Shown: one piece after another, positions 629 through 19,622 of the stretch | How positions within the stretch are numbered: position 1 is the first letter of the stretch | How the letters are laid out: each line of letters starts with the position of its first letter | From: Nitrospina sp. | GTDB taxonomy: Bacteria > Nitrospinota > Nitrospinia > Nitrospinales > JACRGP01 | Length of the DNA: 64,000 bases | NCBI GenBank assembly: GCA_024648695.1 | Contig: JACAVV010000005.1 | Coordinates: 310,001-374,000 of the forward strand | Direction of reading: 5' to 3' | Program-made: the position numbers and the translations under genes | The notes under the pieces: generated by a model | What the model saw: only the letters and a program-made list of their open reading frames with translations | The model's database searches: none | What the model was told of the DNA's origin: nothing

Positions 629-1735
629 TTAACAGTTACCTTGGCAGATGATGACGGATTCGCCACCGGGCTGGGTGACCGAGAAATTCAAGCCATTTCC
701 ATTTTGAGTGATATCAGCAATGTTGCCGGAACCGTGCTGAATGATGTTGGCGATATTGTCATTACCAATCTGCTCAACGAAGGCCTGGTTAAAATCACCC
801 TGCTGGGAAATAAATGCCTCGTTGCCTGTACCCTGCTGAAGGATGCCCGCTTCGTGGAACTGACCGTCCTGGGAGATATCGGCAATATTGAAATCGCCAT
901 CCTGGAATATGCCAGCGGTGTTGTCTTCACCAAACTGAATGATCGAAGCCAGATCGAAGTCGCCGTTCTGTTCGATTTCTGCAAAGTTGTTTTCGCCGGG
1001 ATCGACGAGTGCAAATTCGGAATGGCTGTCGGTGCCGTTGTGATCATGATCGTGACCGCGCCCGCGTCCAATGGTGTGACCGCGTCCGCGCTGGTTTCGG
1101 TGGCCGTCTTCGTTCAATGATGAAAAGTCATCAACAATCACATCGTCATCGCCACCTGCCTGGATGATGAGGGCTTCGTTGCTATTACCGGTTTGCGAGA
1201 TGGATGCAAAGTTCAAGTTGCCGGTCTGTTCGATGGCTGCCATATTGTCTGCCCCTTCCTGACCGATGAATGCTTCGTTCTCGGCACCAACCTGGGAAAT
1301 GCTGGCAAAATTGAAATCACCGGTCTGGCTGACTTCAGCTGTATTCAAATCTCCCAATTGGATGATGCTGGTGGGTTCGCCTTCGGGACCGATATTGGAG
1401 TCGCCGGTTTGATCAATAGATGCGAAGTTGTTGAGACCTTCCTGCTCAAGAAAACCTTCGTTCTCATCACCAACCTGGACAATCGACACTTCATTGTCGT
1501 CTCCCACCTGGAAGACCTGGACGATGTTGCTTTCTCCATCCTGATCGACACTGGCCAGGTTACCCACCTGAGCAATGAAAGACAGCACGTCAGCACTTTG
1601 GGATTCGTAAGTATCGTCAAATATGTCCAAAGCACCCCCGGAGGATTGAGTGCTGAAAGACACCAGCAACAACAAAATCAAACCCAATCCAAAACCTGCT
1701 TTTAGTTTTTTAAATCGCATTGAGACTCGCCTCAT
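629..1735 (-). CDS. Long curlin-repeat (CsgA/B-like) secreted protein
   Basis: Signal peptide plus about 20 units of 11 aa such as FASISQVGAEN / EAFIGQEGADN / MAAIEQTGNLN; lies just upstream of the 63..608 gene on the same strand. Confidence 0.85.
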   Translation of the reverse strand: MRRVSMRFKKLKAGFGLGLILLLLVSFSTQSSGGALDIFDDTYESQSADVLSFIAQVGNLASVDQDGESNIVQVFQVGDDNEVSIVQVGDENEGFLEQEGLNNFASIDQTGDSNIGPEGEPTSIIQLGDLNTAEVSQTGDFNFASISQVGAENEAFIGQEGADNMAAIEQTGNLNFASISQTGNSNEALIIQAGGDDDVIVDDFSSLNEDGHRNQRGRGHTIGRGRGHDHDHNGTDSHSEFALVDPGENNFAEIEQNGDFDLASIIQFGEDNTAGIFQDGDFNIADISQDGQFHEAGILQQGTGNEAFISQQGDFNQAFVEQIGNDNIANIIQHGSGNIADITQNGNGLNFSVTQPGGESVIICQGNC

Positions 1736-2487: not shown

Positions 2488-4323
2488 TTAATTCAAACCG
2501 CTAAATTGGGAGTTTTTTAAGGCTCTGGAATCTTGCAAATCGCCAATAAATTCCATTGCAAACCCTGTGCTGGAGGCCTCCAGCACCACGGCTCCCCAAA
2601 GTGTCAGGCCGGTGACATCAGGGTACGCTCCATCGGCTAGCACGGTATTCGGGCTTTCCGCCAGGGCTTCCACACGGAGTTGTCCCGCGCAGGCACCTTC
2701 GCTTCCCTGGATGAATTTTGCCGCGGGAAAGGTATCGGAGTTAATGAAAGGGTGGTTCACGGGATTGATAAACACTTGCCGGGATTCATTCGGTGTGATG
2801 GTAAATTCCAGGGCATCGCCATACAATCCGGTTCCATCGGCTAAAAGGGCGCTCACCACGACACCTATTCGGGAACTCATGCCTTCAGCCGAAGGATGGT
2901 TGATAGCCAGAAAGGAATAGACGCCGGTCCCGGACTGCCAATAGGGGGATATCACTTTTTGTGAAGTGGGGTCTGAAGGTGCCGGCTGGACGGTGGACGA
3001 GGGAAAACAGGGGTGCGGGCTGATGGCGGCGCGAAAGTTTTCTGCGAGTGGAATGGTTTCTCTCAAGACCCGGCTGTTGTCCGCGGGAAAATCTTCGCCT
3101 TCAGGAATTCCCGTAGGGTCGCTTCCAAAATTTATGTCCGGATTCGACCAGTGCAGGGCCAAAGGACAAGAGTTGCACGATTCCGCATCGGCCATCACGG
3201 TTCGGAAACGGCTTAGGGGTCCGATATAACCGTGATTATAAGTAAACGGTTCGCCATCTGTGGAATCGGATGCCCAATCGTGGCGGGCTCCCAGATTGTG
3301 CCCGATCGCATGAGCCAGGGTGAGATCCATGGAAACGCAAGACCGTTCCACAACCGAAAACGCATCGGTTGAAAAGCTGGCGTCGGCAACGGTCATTTGA
3401 TTGGCAATGGAACAGCGCGACATATCCCCTTCCACAACAAGCACAACCAGGTCGGCACCAAATTGATCCCGCAGAATACTGATTTCCCCGGACAGGGTGA
3501 GGTCTTCCTTGAAATCATTGAGAGCCTGCGCGAGGGTGTTGTTTTCGCTTTCGGTATAAGTCACCTGCCGGGAAGCAACCACGGACATGCGCGCATTCAA
3601 CTGGCTATTGACCAAAGCGCCATTGGCTTCCGCCAGAGCAACGTCGAGTTCGCTTTGCATCGCGGACGCGCCTCCGAAAGCATTGAATGCATCTGCTGTG
3701 TATACCACTAAAATATCCAGATACATTATGGTGTCTGCCTGGGCAGGTGGAGGATCTGCCAAAACCTGGGCTGAAGGGGAAGTGATTTCCCTGGGAGCCC
3801 ATTCTCCCGGAATGAATGCCGGGTCGAGTTCATCGATTTGATGTAAATGACCCTGAATGTTTCGGATTTGGTACTGTCGGCCATTATAATAGATGTTGCC
3901 GAAGACACGGTCTTTTTGAACATCGAGAAAAACATCACCACCTACAGTCGAGGGAATCCTGCCCACCCAAACGTACCCACCTGTCCGGTTTGGAATCAGC
4001 CGCACTTTTTCGGCGGTCAGCGTAACGTCATCAAACAAATTAAAGGTAATGTGTTTGGCAGAGGGCAATACGGCTCTTGAGGAAAGCTCTCCCGGTCTCA
4101 ACGCATGGATGTCCAAATAAGCTACCCTTTGACGGATCAACCAGGGCAATATCCTTGCTTTGGCCTGAATGGACCTATTGGATGCTGGCGGATTTTGAAA
4201 CAGGTTTAAAGGGAAATTGGGATTTTCACTTTCGGCGAAAACATTACCGGCCTGAGTAAAAAAGCAACAAACCAGAGCCAATAGTGTTCCTTGAATGGAC
4301 CCAAAACGTTTGTTATTAAACAT
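2488..4323 (-). CDS. Secreted metzincin/reprolysin-like protein with altered active site and shared C-terminal module
   Basis: Signal peptide; LAHAIGHNLGARHDW (HxxxHxxGxxHD zinc motif) and TVMADAESC Met-turn-like segment; C-terminal VISPYWQSG...STGFAMEFIGDLQDSRAL module. Confidence 0.8.
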   Translation of the reverse strand: MFNNKRFGSIQGTLLALVCCFFTQAGNVFAESENPNFPLNLFQNPPASNRSIQAKARILPWLIRQRVAYLDIHALRPGELSSRAVLPSAKHITFNLFDDVTLTAEKVRLIPNRTGGYVWVGRIPSTVGGDVFLDVQKDRVFGNIYYNGRQYQIRNIQGHLHQIDELDPAFIPGEWAPREITSPSAQVLADPPPAQADTIMYLDILVVYTADAFNAFGGASAMQSELDVALAEANGALVNSQLNARMSVVASRQVTYTESENNTLAQALNDFKEDLTLSGEISILRDQFGADLVVLVVEGDMSRCSIANQMTVADASFSTDAFSVVERSCVSMDLTLAHAIGHNLGARHDWASDSTDGEPFTYNHGYIGPLSRFRTVMADAESCNSCPLALHWSNPDINFGSDPTGIPEGEDFPADNSRVLRETIPLAENFRAAISPHPCFPSSTVQPAPSDPTSQKVISPYWQSGTGVYSFLAINHPSAEGMSSRIGVVVSALLADGTGLYGDALEFTITPNESRQVFINPVNHPFINSDTFPAAKFIQGSEGACAGQLRVEALAESPNTVLADGAYPDVTGLTLWGAVVLEASSTGFAMEFIGDLQDSRALKNSQFSGLN

Positions 4324-4367
4324 TCAGGTGTTCCTTTATAAAGGAATTAAACCGATTCTTTAACCCG

Positions 4368-6776
4368 TCAGTTCAAACCGCTTGAGGACAAGTCGCGGGA
4401 CCCACTTACAGAACTGGAATCCTGCAAATCCCCGATGAACTCCATGGCGAATCCGGTGCTGGTGCCAGCGATAACCACCACGCCCCAATACGACAAGGCA
4501 TTGATATCCGGATAACCACGACCTTGAGTTCCTTCGGCACCTGCCAACTGTTCGGGATGGCTGGACACCGGATGGAACAGGACCTGACCGTGAAAAGACT
4601 CGGCAGGCCCCGCGATGAATTCCGCTGAAGGCAGATTGCCGGCATTAATGGACTCATTGCTTTCCTCCACAATGAAAATTCTCCGTGTCGAGGATTTACT
4701 TATAGTGAATTCCAGCATGGGACCAAACAAACCTTTACCGGAATGGATCACAGCCTGCGCCCGAACACCGATCTGCGAGCTCATTGCCGAAAGCGAAGGG
4801 TGAGAGACTGTAATAAATGTATAGCTGGTCGCGTCGCTTTGCCAATAGGGCGCAATGACACGGCGGCCCTTGTCTTCTCCGAAATTCACAGGTGGACTTA
4901 CAATCAGCGCTAGTTGGCCGGAAACATTGAGTCCGCCGCCTTCAGAAACATCAACTGTGAGCAGACAGGTTTGAGGCTGGCCTGTGAGATTGATCGGAGC
5001 GGTCCAATCGGGGCTGGCCACATCCGTTGAGCTAAAACGGGCTCCCGACATATTGGGGCATGTGGCCGTCCAGGCGAATGCCAGTTCGTTTCCCTGGGCG
5101 GAACTGGCAGAAAAGGTGATGGGAACGGTTTCTCCAGACCCGACGAGAGTGCTTTCGATAGAAGGGCCCGTGATGCTCGGCAATGTCCCAAATTCATCTA
5201 TCGCTGAATCGATTTGAATGCGGGGGAAGGTTAAACCGTTGCGCGTGTCATTGACCGGCACCCCAGTTGTCTTGAGCAGATCCAGTAAAGTTCCAACCGC
5301 GAGATTCCCAGTATTGCTTGGCAGGTTAGTACCCGAGAGGTTTTCCTCCGCGTGGCGTAACAAGGAGAATGCTCCGGCAACCTGGGGAGAGGCCATAGAG
5401 GTGCCGTCAAAGGTTTCGAAATTATTTCCCGGAGTGGATGACAGAATGTTTGTCCCCGGAGCCAACAGGTCCAGAATGGGAGCGGCGTTGGAAAAACTGG
5501 ATACAGTGTCCGTTTTTGTGGTGGAACCGACGCTTATCACGTTGGACAAACAGGCGGGCGAAGAAATATTATTAGCCTGAGACTCGTTTCCTGAAGCCGC
5601 CACTGCCGCGACACCGTTATTGTTCAATAAATCGATGACGGCTTTGATGGATGGGTCGTCACTATCGCATACTGTATTGAACGCGCCACCTCCCAGACTC
5701 ATATTGACTGCGGCTATTTTCATTTGCGTCGACAAGGTCAATACCCTTTCCAAGGCCGATACCAAATCCGATGTACTTGCAGAGATACAGGGAGTACCCA
5801 AAAATCCGCAAAAAGAAGAGTCTGTAATTTTGGAAAACACCTGAATGGCGATCAGATCCGCTTCCTTACCCACGCCGCCAAACCCAGGTCCATGACCTAC
5901 AGCGATTCCGGCAACATGACTGCCATGGTCACATCCTGCATTGTTTAAAGATGGATCGTTGGCGTTGCAATGGAGTCCAGAGCCAGGAGCGGTTGAAAAT
6001 GGCTCAGCGTTCGGGCACACGCTAAACTGGCCAAAGGTCGGAAAGCTGGTGGAATAACATGCTTCCGATACCAGTTTGTTGCCGCTATCGAAAAATGAAT
6101 GCGTATAATCCACTCCTGTATCCAGCACCGCAACGGCCCAGCCATTACCGGTATGGTTTTGCTCCCACACCGTTGGCGCACCGATCAACGGGGAACTCTC
6201 TCCTAACGAAGGGCGGTACCAGCGTTCTTCCTGAATGTCCTGGATTTGATCGTTTTCCTGGAGAGCTTTGAAGGTAGACGCGTCCACACTCATGCCCAAA
6301 TAAGGAACATAAGAAAAATGTCGCAAATCGGAAATAGTGTGATCGGCTCCCCGAAACGATTCAAGAAAATCATTCTGGAGCTTTGAAATCCGGTCTTTTA
6401 AGGATTGTAAGTTTTCTGCGGATTGAGGGAGCGCATCGGTTTTCCGGTTTTCCTTTAACCGGACGATGACCCGTGCAGTTCCCGTTTCTTTGGACAGGGA
6501 AGACAATTGGTCCCAGGAAGCCCCCAAAGCAAAGGCTGAATTGCCGAAACAAAAAAAAGCCAGGCAAATCAAAAACAGCAATGAGATTCCAACCTGAATG
6601 GAATTTCGAATGGAGAGGCTCCTGTTAATTGAAAGGCTGAAAAGATTAAAGCAAAGAGCTAATAAACCCGAGCAATGGATAAAAAGGGGGACCCCAAAAA
6701 ATCGTTTAAATTGATCAAAGAACTTATTGAGGACTCTAAATTGTGGGCCTTCGGCCTCATTTATCCCCCTCACCAT
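4368..6776 (-). CDS. Secreted subtilisin-like serine protease (S8) with shared C-terminal module; true start may be internal
   Basis: Catalytic motifs AVLDTGVDYTH, CDHGSHVAGIAVG and DGTSMASPQVAGA; C-terminal VIAPYWQSD...STGFAMEFIGDLQDSSS module. The annotated N-terminus precedes a hydrophobic signal region and its first codons overlap a dispersed repeat. Confidence 0.9.
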   Translation of the reverse strand: MVRGINEAEGPQFRVLNKFFDQFKRFFGVPLFIHCSGLLALCFNLFSLSINRSLSIRNSIQVGISLLFLICLAFFCFGNSAFALGASWDQLSSLSKETGTARVIVRLKENRKTDALPQSAENLQSLKDRISKLQNDFLESFRGADHTISDLRHFSYVPYLGMSVDASTFKALQENDQIQDIQEERWYRPSLGESSPLIGAPTVWEQNHTGNGWAVAVLDTGVDYTHSFFDSGNKLVSEACYSTSFPTFGQFSVCPNAEPFSTAPGSGLHCNANDPSLNNAGCDHGSHVAGIAVGHGPGFGGVGKEADLIAIQVFSKITDSSFCGFLGTPCISASTSDLVSALERVLTLSTQMKIAAVNMSLGGGAFNTVCDSDDPSIKAVIDLLNNNGVAAVAASGNESQANNISSPACLSNVISVGSTTKTDTVSSFSNAAPILDLLAPGTNILSSTPGNNFETFDGTSMASPQVAGAFSLLRHAEENLSGTNLPSNTGNLAVGTLLDLLKTTGVPVNDTRNGLTFPRIQIDSAIDEFGTLPSITGPSIESTLVGSGETVPITFSASSAQGNELAFAWTATCPNMSGARFSSTDVASPDWTAPINLTGQPQTCLLTVDVSEGGGLNVSGQLALIVSPPVNFGEDKGRRVIAPYWQSDATSYTFITVSHPSLSAMSSQIGVRAQAVIHSGKGLFGPMLEFTISKSSTRRIFIVEESNESINAGNLPSAEFIAGPAESFHGQVLFHPVSSHPEQLAGAEGTQGRGYPDINALSYWGVVVIAGTSTGFAMEFIGDLQDSSSVSGSRDLSSSGLN

Positions 6777-15345: not shown

Positions 15346-16845
15346 TTAAAATCGTAATTCTTCCAGAGACCTAAACGATTCCAGATCAGTAAGTAAAAGC
15401 AGATCTTCATCGTCCAAAGGATTTCTCCTCAAATCGAGTTTTTTAAGAGACGTGAATTTGCCGAGTTGCGTTAAGGCGATGATGGCAGGTTTGCCGACCC
15501 GGTTCCCGCCAAGACGAAGTTCCTGTAATTGATCCATCAAGCCGGATTGAACTAATGCAACTCCACCTGTGTTGCCAATTTGGGCATTCGACAGAAATAG
15601 AATATTCAATCCATTCAGGCTTTTTGAGCGCAATAAATACTGTATACCCTTGTCCCCAATGACATTGTCACTCAGGTTCAAACTTTCCAGAGATAAGGAA
15701 GATTTCGCTTGAGTAAGCGCTAAAACCCCCAATGCATTGATACCGGTTTTTTCCAGGTTCAACCGGGTCAACTGGCTCAATACCGGGGACTGCGACAAGA
15801 TGAACGCGCCTTTATTTCCAATCCTGTTATCCATCAGGTTGAGGGACCGCAGATTTTTTAAATGCGGTGAACCCAGCAAGGTTTCCAGGCCTTTATGATC
15901 GAAATGATTATTGCGTAGCGACAAATGTTCAACATTTGCCAGAAATTCAGCACAGGCCAAAGCCTGCAACCCTTTATTTTTGAGACGCTGGCCATTCAGA
16001 TTGAGGCCTTTTCCATTATCATACAGGCCTTTTTGGGCTAATTGCTTGATTTGCAAACCTTGCAGGGCCACTTCGCCATCACGCCGAAAAGGATTGTCGA
16101 ACAAGTACAATTCCCGCAAACGTTTCAAGTGGCTGGTCTGACCCAGCGCCAGAGCTCCAGCATTTCCGATTTCATTGGAATCGAGCAGTAATTGCTCAAT
16201 TTGATCCAGGCTATCCGATGAAGCAAGCGCCTTGGCTCCCGCGCTACCAACCTGGTTCCAACCCAAATTGAGGTGGCTGACCGTAGAAAACAATCCCGCC
16301 GAGATCCATTTGCCCAGCAAATCGTCCCCAATTGAATTGCTTCTTAAATTGAGAATTTTAAGGTTTCCACTAACAGGAGCCAGAGAGTCCGATGAAAGCT
16401 CCTGAACACCAATTTGATTCTTTTCTAAAATCAGCGTATGGAGTTTGGGAAACTGTTTTGATTGGATCAACTGAGCCGCGCCACGCTCTCCGATTTGATT
16501 ATTGAGCAACGTCAAATGGACCAATTCTGATAAAGCTTTGGATTCTGCCAAAGCCTGGGCTCCCGCACAAGTGATCTGGTTCGAATCCAAAATCAAGGTT
16601 CTCAGGTTTCCCAGCGTGCCACATTGGGCTAAAGCTTTCAGGCCTGTATCGCCGATTTCGTTCCAACTCAAATTCAAGCCCCGAACATGCGAAAGGTCCC
16701 GCGTGCGCGCCAGCAGGATCACCCCTTCATCGCCCATGCGCTCATAGCTGAAATCGAGATGGTCCGTCCCGGAACCCACCGCGTCGCGGATCACGTTGAT
16801 GATTTTCATTTCCTGTTTTTTGGTTTCCATAGACCTATCAATCAT
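15346..16845 (-). CDS. Leucine-rich-repeat (RNI-like) protein, no signal peptide
   Basis: Repeated units of about 24-28 aa: LNLSWNEIGDTGLKALAQ, LILDSNQITCAGAQALAES, LTLLNNQIGERGAAQLIQS. Confidence 0.85.
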   Translation of the reverse strand: MIDRSMETKKQEMKIINVIRDAVGSGTDHLDFSYERMGDEGVILLARTRDLSHVRGLNLSWNEIGDTGLKALAQCGTLGNLRTLILDSNQITCAGAQALAESKALSELVHLTLLNNQIGERGAAQLIQSKQFPKLHTLILEKNQIGVQELSSDSLAPVSGNLKILNLRSNSIGDDLLGKWISAGLFSTVSHLNLGWNQVGSAGAKALASSDSLDQIEQLLLDSNEIGNAGALALGQTSHLKRLRELYLFDNPFRRDGEVALQGLQIKQLAQKGLYDNGKGLNLNGQRLKNKGLQALACAEFLANVEHLSLRNNHFDHKGLETLLGSPHLKNLRSLNLMDNRIGNKGAFILSQSPVLSQLTRLNLEKTGINALGVLALTQAKSSLSLESLNLSDNVIGDKGIQYLLRSKSLNGLNILFLSNAQIGNTGGVALVQSGLMDQLQELRLGGNRVGKPAIIALTQLGKFTSLKKLDLRRNPLDDEDLLLLTDLESFRSLEELRF

Positions 16846-17512
16846 AAATACCGATTTCAGGATAGAGATCGATTTTCATGAATTCCAATCCGGCGAGGAA
16901 CTCCGAATCGCGCATCAACTCGAGTCCTTCAATATCCAGCCGGTTGTACATCATTTGGAGGTTATTCAAACTTTTGAGGGATTTGGACTCGGCCAAAGCT
17001 TTCATGCCCCGGTAGCCGATCCCATTCGCATCCAGATGCAGGGTATGCAGTTTACGCAGGTTGGGTGATTTCGCGATCGCTTCAGCACCTTCATCGCCAA
17101 TCCGGTTGAACGACAAATCCAGAGTTTCCAGGCGCTGAACGTTGGGGGAGTCTACCAAAGCGGCGATCCCCTCGCCATCGATCTTGTTGCTGTATAAACT
17201 CAGATAGCGCAGGTTGGACAAGCGGTCGCAATCAGCAATAGCTTGCAGTCCTTCCCCGCGTAATTTATTGGTGTAGAGCCAAAGGTTTTCCAGAGTGTCC
17301 GGGAAAAATTCCGACCCGGCCAGTTCCTCCAGGCCCAAATCTTTAAGTTGCGTTTCGTAAAGATAAATGGTTTCCAAACCTTCAACGCTTACATTTTCGG
17401 CGATATCCATTGCCATCTGAACATCTATTTTGCGCTGAGAAAAATCCAGGGTCTTGCTATCTTTGCTTAACCCACGTTTGATCCAACGGCGAAAATTGAT
17501 TTCCTTCGCCAT
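16838..17512 (-). CDS. Leucine-rich-repeat (RNI-like) protein, shorter paralogue
   Basis: LYLYSNKIDGEGIAALVDS-type repeats; overlaps the start of the following LRR ORF by 8 nt. Confidence 0.85.
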   Translation of the reverse strand: MAKEINFRRWIKRGLSKDSKTLDFSQRKIDVQMAMDIAENVSVEGLETIYLYETQLKDLGLEELAGSEFFPDTLENLWLYTNKLRGEGLQAIADCDRLSNLRYLSLYSNKIDGEGIAALVDSPNVQRLETLDLSFNRIGDEGAEAIAKSPNLRKLHTLHLDANGIGYRGMKALAESKSLKSLNNLQMMYNRLDIEGLELMRDSEFLAGLEFMKIDLYPEIGIYD

Positions 17513-18104: not shown

Positions 18105-19622
18105 ATGGAAACCAGGAATAGCAATATTTTAAATTCCCAATTTTCAAGGATTTTTCCAATGAATCATAATTCTGTCCGCAATATCCTGTTCTTCAGAAAA
18201 TGTGTAAATTTCTTCTTCGGGTTCCTGGTTTACTTTCTGCTCCATTTACCTTCAATCTACGCCGGAAATTTATTCGTGGTCGATTCTTCGTCGCAGGAGG
18301 TCAAACAATTCGACGCGGACACCGGAAACTTTCTGGGGGTTGTGACGGGAACGACAGGCAATCTCGAAACTCCGTTAGGGATTGCGTTTCATCCAGGAAC
18401 CGGAAACATATTCATTGCCAATGGAGGAAACAATGATGACATCCGGCAGTTCGATCCCGATTCGGGAACATCTTCAGGTAGCTTTGGAGAAACCTCCAAT
18501 TTTCTGCTTGATCCACTCAGGCCCACCTTTCATCCCTTGACACATAATTTATTCGTTAGCGACTCCTCCTCGGGTCATGGAGACGTGCGGGAGTTCGATA
18601 ACAAAACAGGTGATTTTATTAGCTCCTTTGGGGAAACCGCGGAACGGCTGGAGGGTATCCGTGGCTTGACTTTTAACCCAATCGATTTCCATTTGCTTGT
18701 GTCCAACTCAACATCGATTATGGAGTTCGAGGGCTTCACCGGGAAATTTATTCGATCCTTTGGAAGTCCCAGCCTCGCTCTTGGACTGGGTTTGGTCGTG
18801 CATCCCGTCACAGGGAACATCCTTGTGGCCGATTTTAATAATCAGGATGTGCGGGAGTTTGAAAAAGACACGGGTGTGTTCCTGGGAACGTTTGGAGAAA
18901 CCGGGACTCATTTGATCAGTCCCGAGGACGTAATGTTTCATCCTGAAACAGGAAACTTGCTGGTAACGGATTTTGCAAACGGCGATGTTCGTGAATTCGA
19001 GGGTACGACAGGTGCGTTTTTAGGTGTCTTTGGCGAAACGGGTGACCACTTGACCCATCCCGACGGTTTGATGTTTCGACCCGATTTTTTAAACCTGCCT
19101 TTGCTTTCTTTACCTTCCGATTTCCCAGATTCCCCCAATTCGCAAAGGGTGGTCTCCCCTTACTGGCAATCCGATTCGGCGACCTACACCTTTGTGTCGG
19201 TGTCGCACCCTTCGCTTTCCGGGATGAGTTCCCAAATAGGTCTGCAAGTGAACGCCCTGGTTCGTGGCGAAAAGTTATTATTCGGAACCGCCGAGTTCAC
19301 CATTCAACGCAACAACACGCAAAAAGTTTTTATCGTGGGCACTAATCACCCCGTATTGAATCCGGCCGCTTTTCCCAATGACACAATCCTTGCAGGCAAC
19401 GACATGCCCATGCATGGGCAATTGATATTTCAGCCGCTCGCAGAAAAGCCCGAAACCCGGATTGGCAATGCTGACGGAAGCGGCTTTCCCGACATCACAC
19501 ATTTGAATATATGGGGCGCCGTGGTTGTGCAAGCCACCAGCACCGGCTTCGCTATGGAATTCATCGGCGACGCCAGCGATTCCCGCGCCGTGACATCAGG
19601 CCGATTCAGTGGGGTGAATTAA
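18105..19622 (+). CDS. Secreted repeat (NHL/propeller-like) protein with shared C-terminal module
   Basis: Repeats such as FHPETGNLLVTDFANGDVREFEGTTGAFLGVFGETG; C-terminal VVSPYWQSDSATYTF...STGFAMEFIGDASDSRAVTSGRFSGVN; a likely start is MNHNSVRN at 18159. Confidence 0.8.
   Translation: METRNSNILNSQFSRIFPMNHNSVRNILFFRKCVNFFFGFLVYFLLHLPSIYAGNLFVVDSSSQEVKQFDADTGNFLGVVTGTTGNLETPLGIAFHPGTGNIFIANGGNNDDIRQFDPDSGTSSGSFGETSNFLLDPLRPTFHPLTHNLFVSDSSSGHGDVREFDNKTGDFISSFGETAERLEGIRGLTFNPIDFHLLVSNSTSIMEFEGFTGKFIRSFGSPSLALGLGLVVHPVTGNILVADFNNQDVREFEKDTGVFLGTFGETGTHLISPEDVMFHPETGNLLVTDFANGDVREFEGTTGAFLGVFGETGDHLTHPDGLMFRPDFLNLPLLSLPSDFPDSPNSQRVVSPYWQSDSATYTFVSVSHPSLSGMSSQIGLQVNALVRGEKLLFGTAEFTIQRNNTQKVFIVGTNHPVLNPAAFPNDTILAGNDMPMHGQLIFQPLAEKPETRIGNADGSGFPDITHLNIWGAVVVQATSTGFAMEFIGDASDSRAVTSGRFSGVN

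Follow-up and report, generated by a model that had tools for sequence, protein, structure and literature searches.

Three open reading frames in a 64,000-nucleotide stretch of Nitrospina sp. contig JACAVV010000005.1 (the window; the host genome comprises 4.2 Mb in 56 contigs) close with a common C-terminal block of about 158 residues, called the module here. In most relatives, the module is a small secreted protein, which we name ModA, usually followed by its paralogue ModB, after which comes a TPR lipoprotein. Sequence comparisons suggest that the module is a surface-docking or sorting tag derived from ModA, a reading that we favour and hold at about even chances. The terminal position of the module, its disordered yet conserved end, its recruitment more than once from a small secreted protein, and its linkage to the lipoprotein together form the pattern expected of such a tag.

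The original prediction was that a common C-terminal block is found on open reading frames with unrelated N-terminal domains, and the alignment bears this out. Identity to copy 1 is 44% for copy 2 and 51% for copy 3, and 56 columns are invariant, including STGFAMEFIGD. The heads of the three proteins are indeed unrelated, being assigned by Pfam to reprolysin M12B (E=1.4e-13), Peptidase_S8 (E=3.1e-35) and NHL repeat (E=9.1e-7). The limits first given for the three copies needed adjustment, and the corrected ones are listed here with the proteins and tails:

2488-4323, minus strand: metzincin-like (M12B/reprolysin) secreted protein, 611 residues, consisting of signal peptide, head and module
2491-2964, minus strand: module copy 1, 158 residues, at the C-terminus of the metzincin-like protein (alignment, own-genome search)
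2491-2538, minus strand: tail LQDSRALKNSQFSGLN of module copy 1, with the last residue directly at the stop (translation, tail statistics)
4368-6776, minus strand: subtilase (S8) secreted protein, 802 residues
4371-4871, minus strand: module copy 2, at the C-terminus of the subtilase (alignment, own-genome search)
4371-4427, minus strand: tail LQDSSSVSGSRDLSSSGLN of module copy 2 (translation, tail statistics)
18105-19622, plus strand: NHL-repeat (beta-propeller-type) secreted protein, 505 residues, with the module at its end
19143-19619, plus strand: module copy 3, 159 residues, at the C-terminus of the NHL-repeat protein (alignment, structure model)
19572-19619, plus strand: tail ASDSRAVTSGRFSGVN of module copy 3, predicted to be disordered (translation, model, tail statistics)

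A search of the host genome with one copy as query gave 46 matching places, most of them with E from 1e-30 to 1e-46 and in open frames of as many as 5370 codons, well outside what chance would give, and the final profile found 47 module copies there; module proteins reach 5,368 residues. Profile searches identified the module in 40 of 77 Nitrospinota genomes, usually in 1 to 6 copies, with 9 and 11 copies in two relatives from the same family as the host. Its occurrence on other proteins of the lineage, on which the original prediction depended, is therefore clear. A scan of 84,980 named species gave 57 loci, nearly all in Nitrospinota. Three apparently proteobacterial carriers (L077, L078 and L114) are short contigs of metagenome-assembled genomes; their modules lie on short branches among Nitrospinaceae sequences, and they are probably misbinned. 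No remote relatives of the module were found at E<=10 in 12 module-free Nitrospinota genomes, and none on the plasmids and viral contigs searched. None of 10 modules tested matched a Pfam or NCBIfam family, no PDB sequence is similar to the block, and a search of the open literature found no description of it. The module was proposed to be an unrecognised one, and these searches agree, with no strong match to any characterised domain.

When the module is fused to another protein, it is almost always the C-terminal domain. The 154 distinct copies comprise 84 whole small proteins, 69 that form the very C-terminus of a larger protein, 1 at the N-terminus and none in an internal position, so that the terminal placement expected from the window holds for 69 of the 70 fused copies. 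In the single N-terminal case (L160, G000:C34:182413-182901), the module directly follows the signal peptide of an RHS-repeat/Calx-beta protein, and the tail motif has been lost. By a crude rule, signal-peptide-like N-termini are present in 33 of the 37 host-genome proteins with usable starts. A transmembrane-like stretch within the last 60 residues was found in 0 of the 154 copies. The expectation that different heads would be joined to the module was also confirmed, the head types being M12B peptidases, S8 peptidases, NHL/SGL propellers, glucose/sorbosone dehydrogenase, SBBP with DUF7948, FG-GAP, Calx-beta, DUF5650, BACON/HYDIN-type Ig, He_PIG and HYR domains. Some of these genes stand in tandem: one array holds five large module-bearing FG-GAP/Calx-beta genes (L144 and L145, G000:C45:149992-179829), and another holds three module genes encoding 543-550 residues (L149, G000:C30:6001-18000).

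The lipoprotein that accompanies the stand-alone proteins has about 285 residues and an invariant lipobox cysteine. Its orthologues score at least 182 bits, as against 126 for the next TPR protein, and it lies directly downstream in 19 loci. These include loci of a distant family in which ModA is only 35% identical and pilus genes are absent from the neighbourhood. Over the 77 genomes, both module and lipoprotein occur in 32, the module only in 8, the lipoprotein only in 3, and neither in 34; this corresponds to an odds ratio of 45 and a Fisher p of 8e-11, which is descriptive and overstates independence, because the genes are neighbours that are lost together, in genomes that are themselves related. 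There is also a second type of cassette, ModA'-ModB', whose usual neighbour is an M12 protein that carries the module.

The ModA-ModB cassette is divergent from the type IV pilus cluster PilS-PilC-PilZ-PilT-PilT in about 20 loci, which could imply that the module belongs to the adjoining pilus system, as one of its components or as its cargo. This is improbable: across the same genomes the presence of the module is not correlated with that of PilT (Fisher p=0.64), six genomes have the module and lipoprotein but no PilT, and several have the pilus cluster without the cassette. Since the module correlates with the lipoprotein and not with PilT, co-occurrence indicates that the pilus link is not functional. 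A pilus role was therefore rejected, despite the conserved neighbourhood. In one pilus-adjoining ModA (L224, G018:C10:58720-59440), an in-frame TAG directly follows GFAMEFIGDM and removes the tail.

A tree of 103 module copies was used to follow the origin of the fused forms. ModB forms one clade (SH-aLRT 99), and every fused copy in the tree nests with ModA; by parsimony, a minimum of five changes between stand-alone and fused is needed. Most of the fused copies in the host genome group with the ModA of that genome. A ModB-like fused copy was found after the tree was made, in genome G018; its tail ends RGIN, in a frame of 878 residues. The original prediction suggested a carrier, attachment or export module. 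The stand-alone proteins, the lipoprotein cassette and the nesting of fused copies with ModA suggest that a carrier or attachment role is likelier than an export signal only; the module is not only an add-on, being mostly a complete small secreted protein in relatives.

In the host genome (39 copies), the tail following GFAMEFIGD has the approximate form D-S-R-A-x(5,6)-F-S-G-x-N, with the stop straight after it. The S, G and N columns are conserved in 97%, 100% and 100% of aligned rows, as compared with a mean column entropy of 1.56 bits. The G-x-N end is present in 37 of the 39 copies, and in 36 of 37 ModB proteins. The tail is predicted to be disordered, yet these three columns are nearly invariant and are placed directly at the stop. 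Other lineages have ends such as GPAAP, PSGVR and TSQP, which are common or nearly common to ModA and cargo of the same lineage. In genome G010, ModA and a fused protein both end in TSQP, using different synonymous codons (ACG TCT CAA CCG and ACC AGC CAA CCT), and in G014, from the same genus, both end in DSTSGIN. The core of ModA is nevertheless about as similar between G010 and G014 (55%) as ModA and cargo are within G010 (53%). Taken together, this single case favours selection on the match over recent gene conversion. Genome-specific matching of cargo and ModA tails was suggestive over all pairs, but within a genus it was generally no better than matching to neighbours, apart from G010, and we therefore claim matching only at the level of the lineage.

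It could be argued that the module has no sorting role, and is a duplicable domain spread by gene duplication of large secreted proteins, as the tandem arrays and the close paralogues in the host genome might suggest. We consider this highly improbable, in view of the unrelated heads, the several separate ModA fusions, the strict terminal position, and the conservation of the tail, all of which would be hard to obtain by drift.

AlphaFold2 was used to predict structures for window copy 3 (pLDDT 81.8, pTM 0.77) and for ModB (pLDDT 70.2, pTM 0.69). Both models have nine strands, with low confidence for the chain end in the former and for the last 28 residues in the latter, and the module is predicted to be a nine-strand beta-sandwich whose C-terminal tail is disordered. 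TM1070 (1nc7) ranks as the most probable PDB neighbour of the ModA-type and the ModB-type model, with Foldseek probabilities of 0.99 and 0.91, TM to target of 0.56 and 0.64, and E values of 0.018 and 0.14, which are not significant. Beta-sandwich parts of agarases are also among the most probable solved folds.

The structure 1nc7 represents the ASRAH/Anabaena sensory rhodopsin transducer family (PF07100), which resembles the module, as modelled, in being a beta-sandwich of similar size with a Trp in the first strand, occurring alone or fused. ASRAH domains have this Trp at strand 1 and a near-invariant Asn ending strand 2 (PMC2739507). In the module the strand-1 Trp is present and at least 90% conserved, but the residue ending strand 2 is His. 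There is no significant sequence or profile match: hhalign of the module against the ASRT profile gave a probability of 0.3 per cent and E=0.22, a weak test as this profile is shallow, with two sequences, and PF07100 was not found in 60 Nitrospinota genomes. Given the negative profile comparison and the replacement of Asn by His, the fold is a hint only, and membership of ASRAH is not claimed.

Sugar binding has been proposed for ASRAH domains (PMC2739507). On this basis the module might be a carbohydrate-binding beta-sandwich, ASRAH-like or resembling a carbohydrate-binding module (CBM), that tethers exported proteins to a glycan, either an external one or the polysaccharide of the cell itself, with no protein receptor. 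The heads are typical of extracellular proteins, and the sandwiches of TM1070 and the agarases are the most probable solved folds for the predicted models, which would fit such a role. We nevertheless regard it as rather unlikely, though a live alternative, because the Foldseek E values (at best 0.018) and the ASRT comparison do not support it, and it leaves unexplained the conserved disordered tail, the lack of internal copies and the linkage to the lipoprotein. Another alternative is that ModA and ModB are structural subunits of a polymer on the surface, a filament or a layer, perhaps held together by swapped C-terminal tails, with the fused proteins built in as decorations. The stand-alone subunits are paired, the fused copies derive from one of the two, and the conserved tail lies next to the last strand, which would fit such a polymer; however, the tail is rich in G, S, N and P and has no clear alternating donor strand, and a polymer of this kind is unlikely, though also a live alternative.

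We return to the surface-docking or sorting tag. The same tag on unrelated exported proteins, and a free-standing copy beside a lipoprotein gene, suggest that the module probably directs or fixes proteins at one common site on the surface of the cell. The ancestor would have been a small Sec-exported ModA, usually encoded with ModB and the TPR lipoprotein. In several lineages, and on a massive scale in the host genome, this ModA would have been added to the C-terminal ends of further exported proteins. The predicted signal peptides would take the proteins across the inner membrane, and a general route, perhaps the type II secretin encoded in the host genome, across the outer one. The module, with its free C-terminal SG-x-N tail, may then be received where ModA and ModB reside, the TPR lipoprotein being the best candidate for a receptor or adaptor. 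In this way a single surface layer or appendage would display enzymes, propellers and giant adhesin-like proteins together. There is no transmembrane or processing signature after the module, which argues for retention rather than cleavage. In its full form, this would be a sorting system of the Nitrospinota's own, with a folded tag, a free SG-x-N end, reception by ModA-ModB and the lipoprotein, and up to about 45 proteins displayed per genome, independent of type IX secretion and sortases; we put this fuller scheme forward tentatively.

Several observations count against a tag of this kind. The lipoprotein is missing from eight module-bearing genomes, two of which are 92-94% complete, and in the loci read the ModA'-ModB'-protease cassette is never accompanied by the lipoprotein; the co-occurrence statistic is itself inflated by relatedness and adjacency. 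G-x-N is replaced by GPAAP or SGVR in some lineages, the cargo tail in genome G032 has no matching ModA, and within genus the match between cargo and ModA tails of one genome is generally no better than with those of its neighbours, G010 excepted. Finally, the stand-alone copies show that the module needs no cargo, and the one N-terminal copy that the C-terminal place is not always needed.

Within the window, further features concern the heads of the two peptidase-family proteins:

3181-3714, minus strand: reprolysin-like domain, residues 204-381 of the metzincin-like protein (PF13583)
3298-3312, minus strand: HAIGH where the zinc-protease motif HExxH is expected, the catalytic Glu being replaced by Ala (codon GCG)
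5325-6149, minus strand: Peptidase_S8 domain, residues 210-484 of the subtilase, with the catalytic motifs DTG, HGSH and GTSMASP all present (PF00082)

The description of the proteins as protease-type holds for the M12B and S8 families, and not for the third head, the NHL-repeat protein. For the metzincin it holds by family and, because of HAIGH, probably not by activity. HExxH is kept in the 11 other module-bearing M12 heads where the motif was found, the window metzincin alone having HAIGH. The codon GCG is one base from GAG, and a sequence error is possible. It is worth adding that two curlin-repeat (CsgA/CsgB-type) proteins, with 4 and 11 repeat stretches (63-608 and 629-1735, minus strand), are encoded on the strand of the metzincin gene, a short way downstream of it, and that two adjoining leucine-rich-repeat-like proteins (15346-16845 and 16838-17512, minus strand) have no apparent signal peptide.

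The module can be compared with known C-terminal tags. PEP-CTERM, GlyGly-CTERM and MYXO-CTERM tags consist of a short motif, a transmembrane helix and a basic end. Like the module, they mark dozens of proteins in a genome with the same C-terminal tag, are restricted to lineages, and have a gene whose presence tracks the tag; unlike them, the module is folded, lacks a transmembrane-like stretch and has no NCBIfam match. With their exosortase, rhombosortase and myxosortase, they provide precedents for the logic of a tag (PMC1569441, PMC3237569, PMC11980579). The type IX secretion C-terminal domains of Bacteroidota (Por_Secre_tail PF18962, TIGR04183, TIGR04131) are similarly found at the extreme C-terminus of unrelated exported proteins, including peptidases and giant adhesins, but the Nitrospinota module is about twice their size and has stand-alone copies. 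None of these models matched any of the 10 modules in Pfam and NCBIfam, for which reason membership of this group was rejected, and PF18962 is absent from the host genome, in a search where the Bacteroides control matched weakly. The SprA/Sov model of type IX secretion (TIGR04189) gave no match in the host genome, and none in the control genomes either. Both groups of tags are precedents for the logic, and not relatives of the module.

The Nitrospinota include major marine nitrite oxidisers, and little is known of how their surface is built. With the module family, a single search is enough to retrieve a large set of a genome's exported and giant surface-type proteins, and the family supplies a candidate receptor in the TPR lipoprotein, which makes the sorting hypothesis directly testable. 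If the hypothesis is true, a folded, transmembrane-free C-terminal tag would join the known surface-sorting signals of bacteria.

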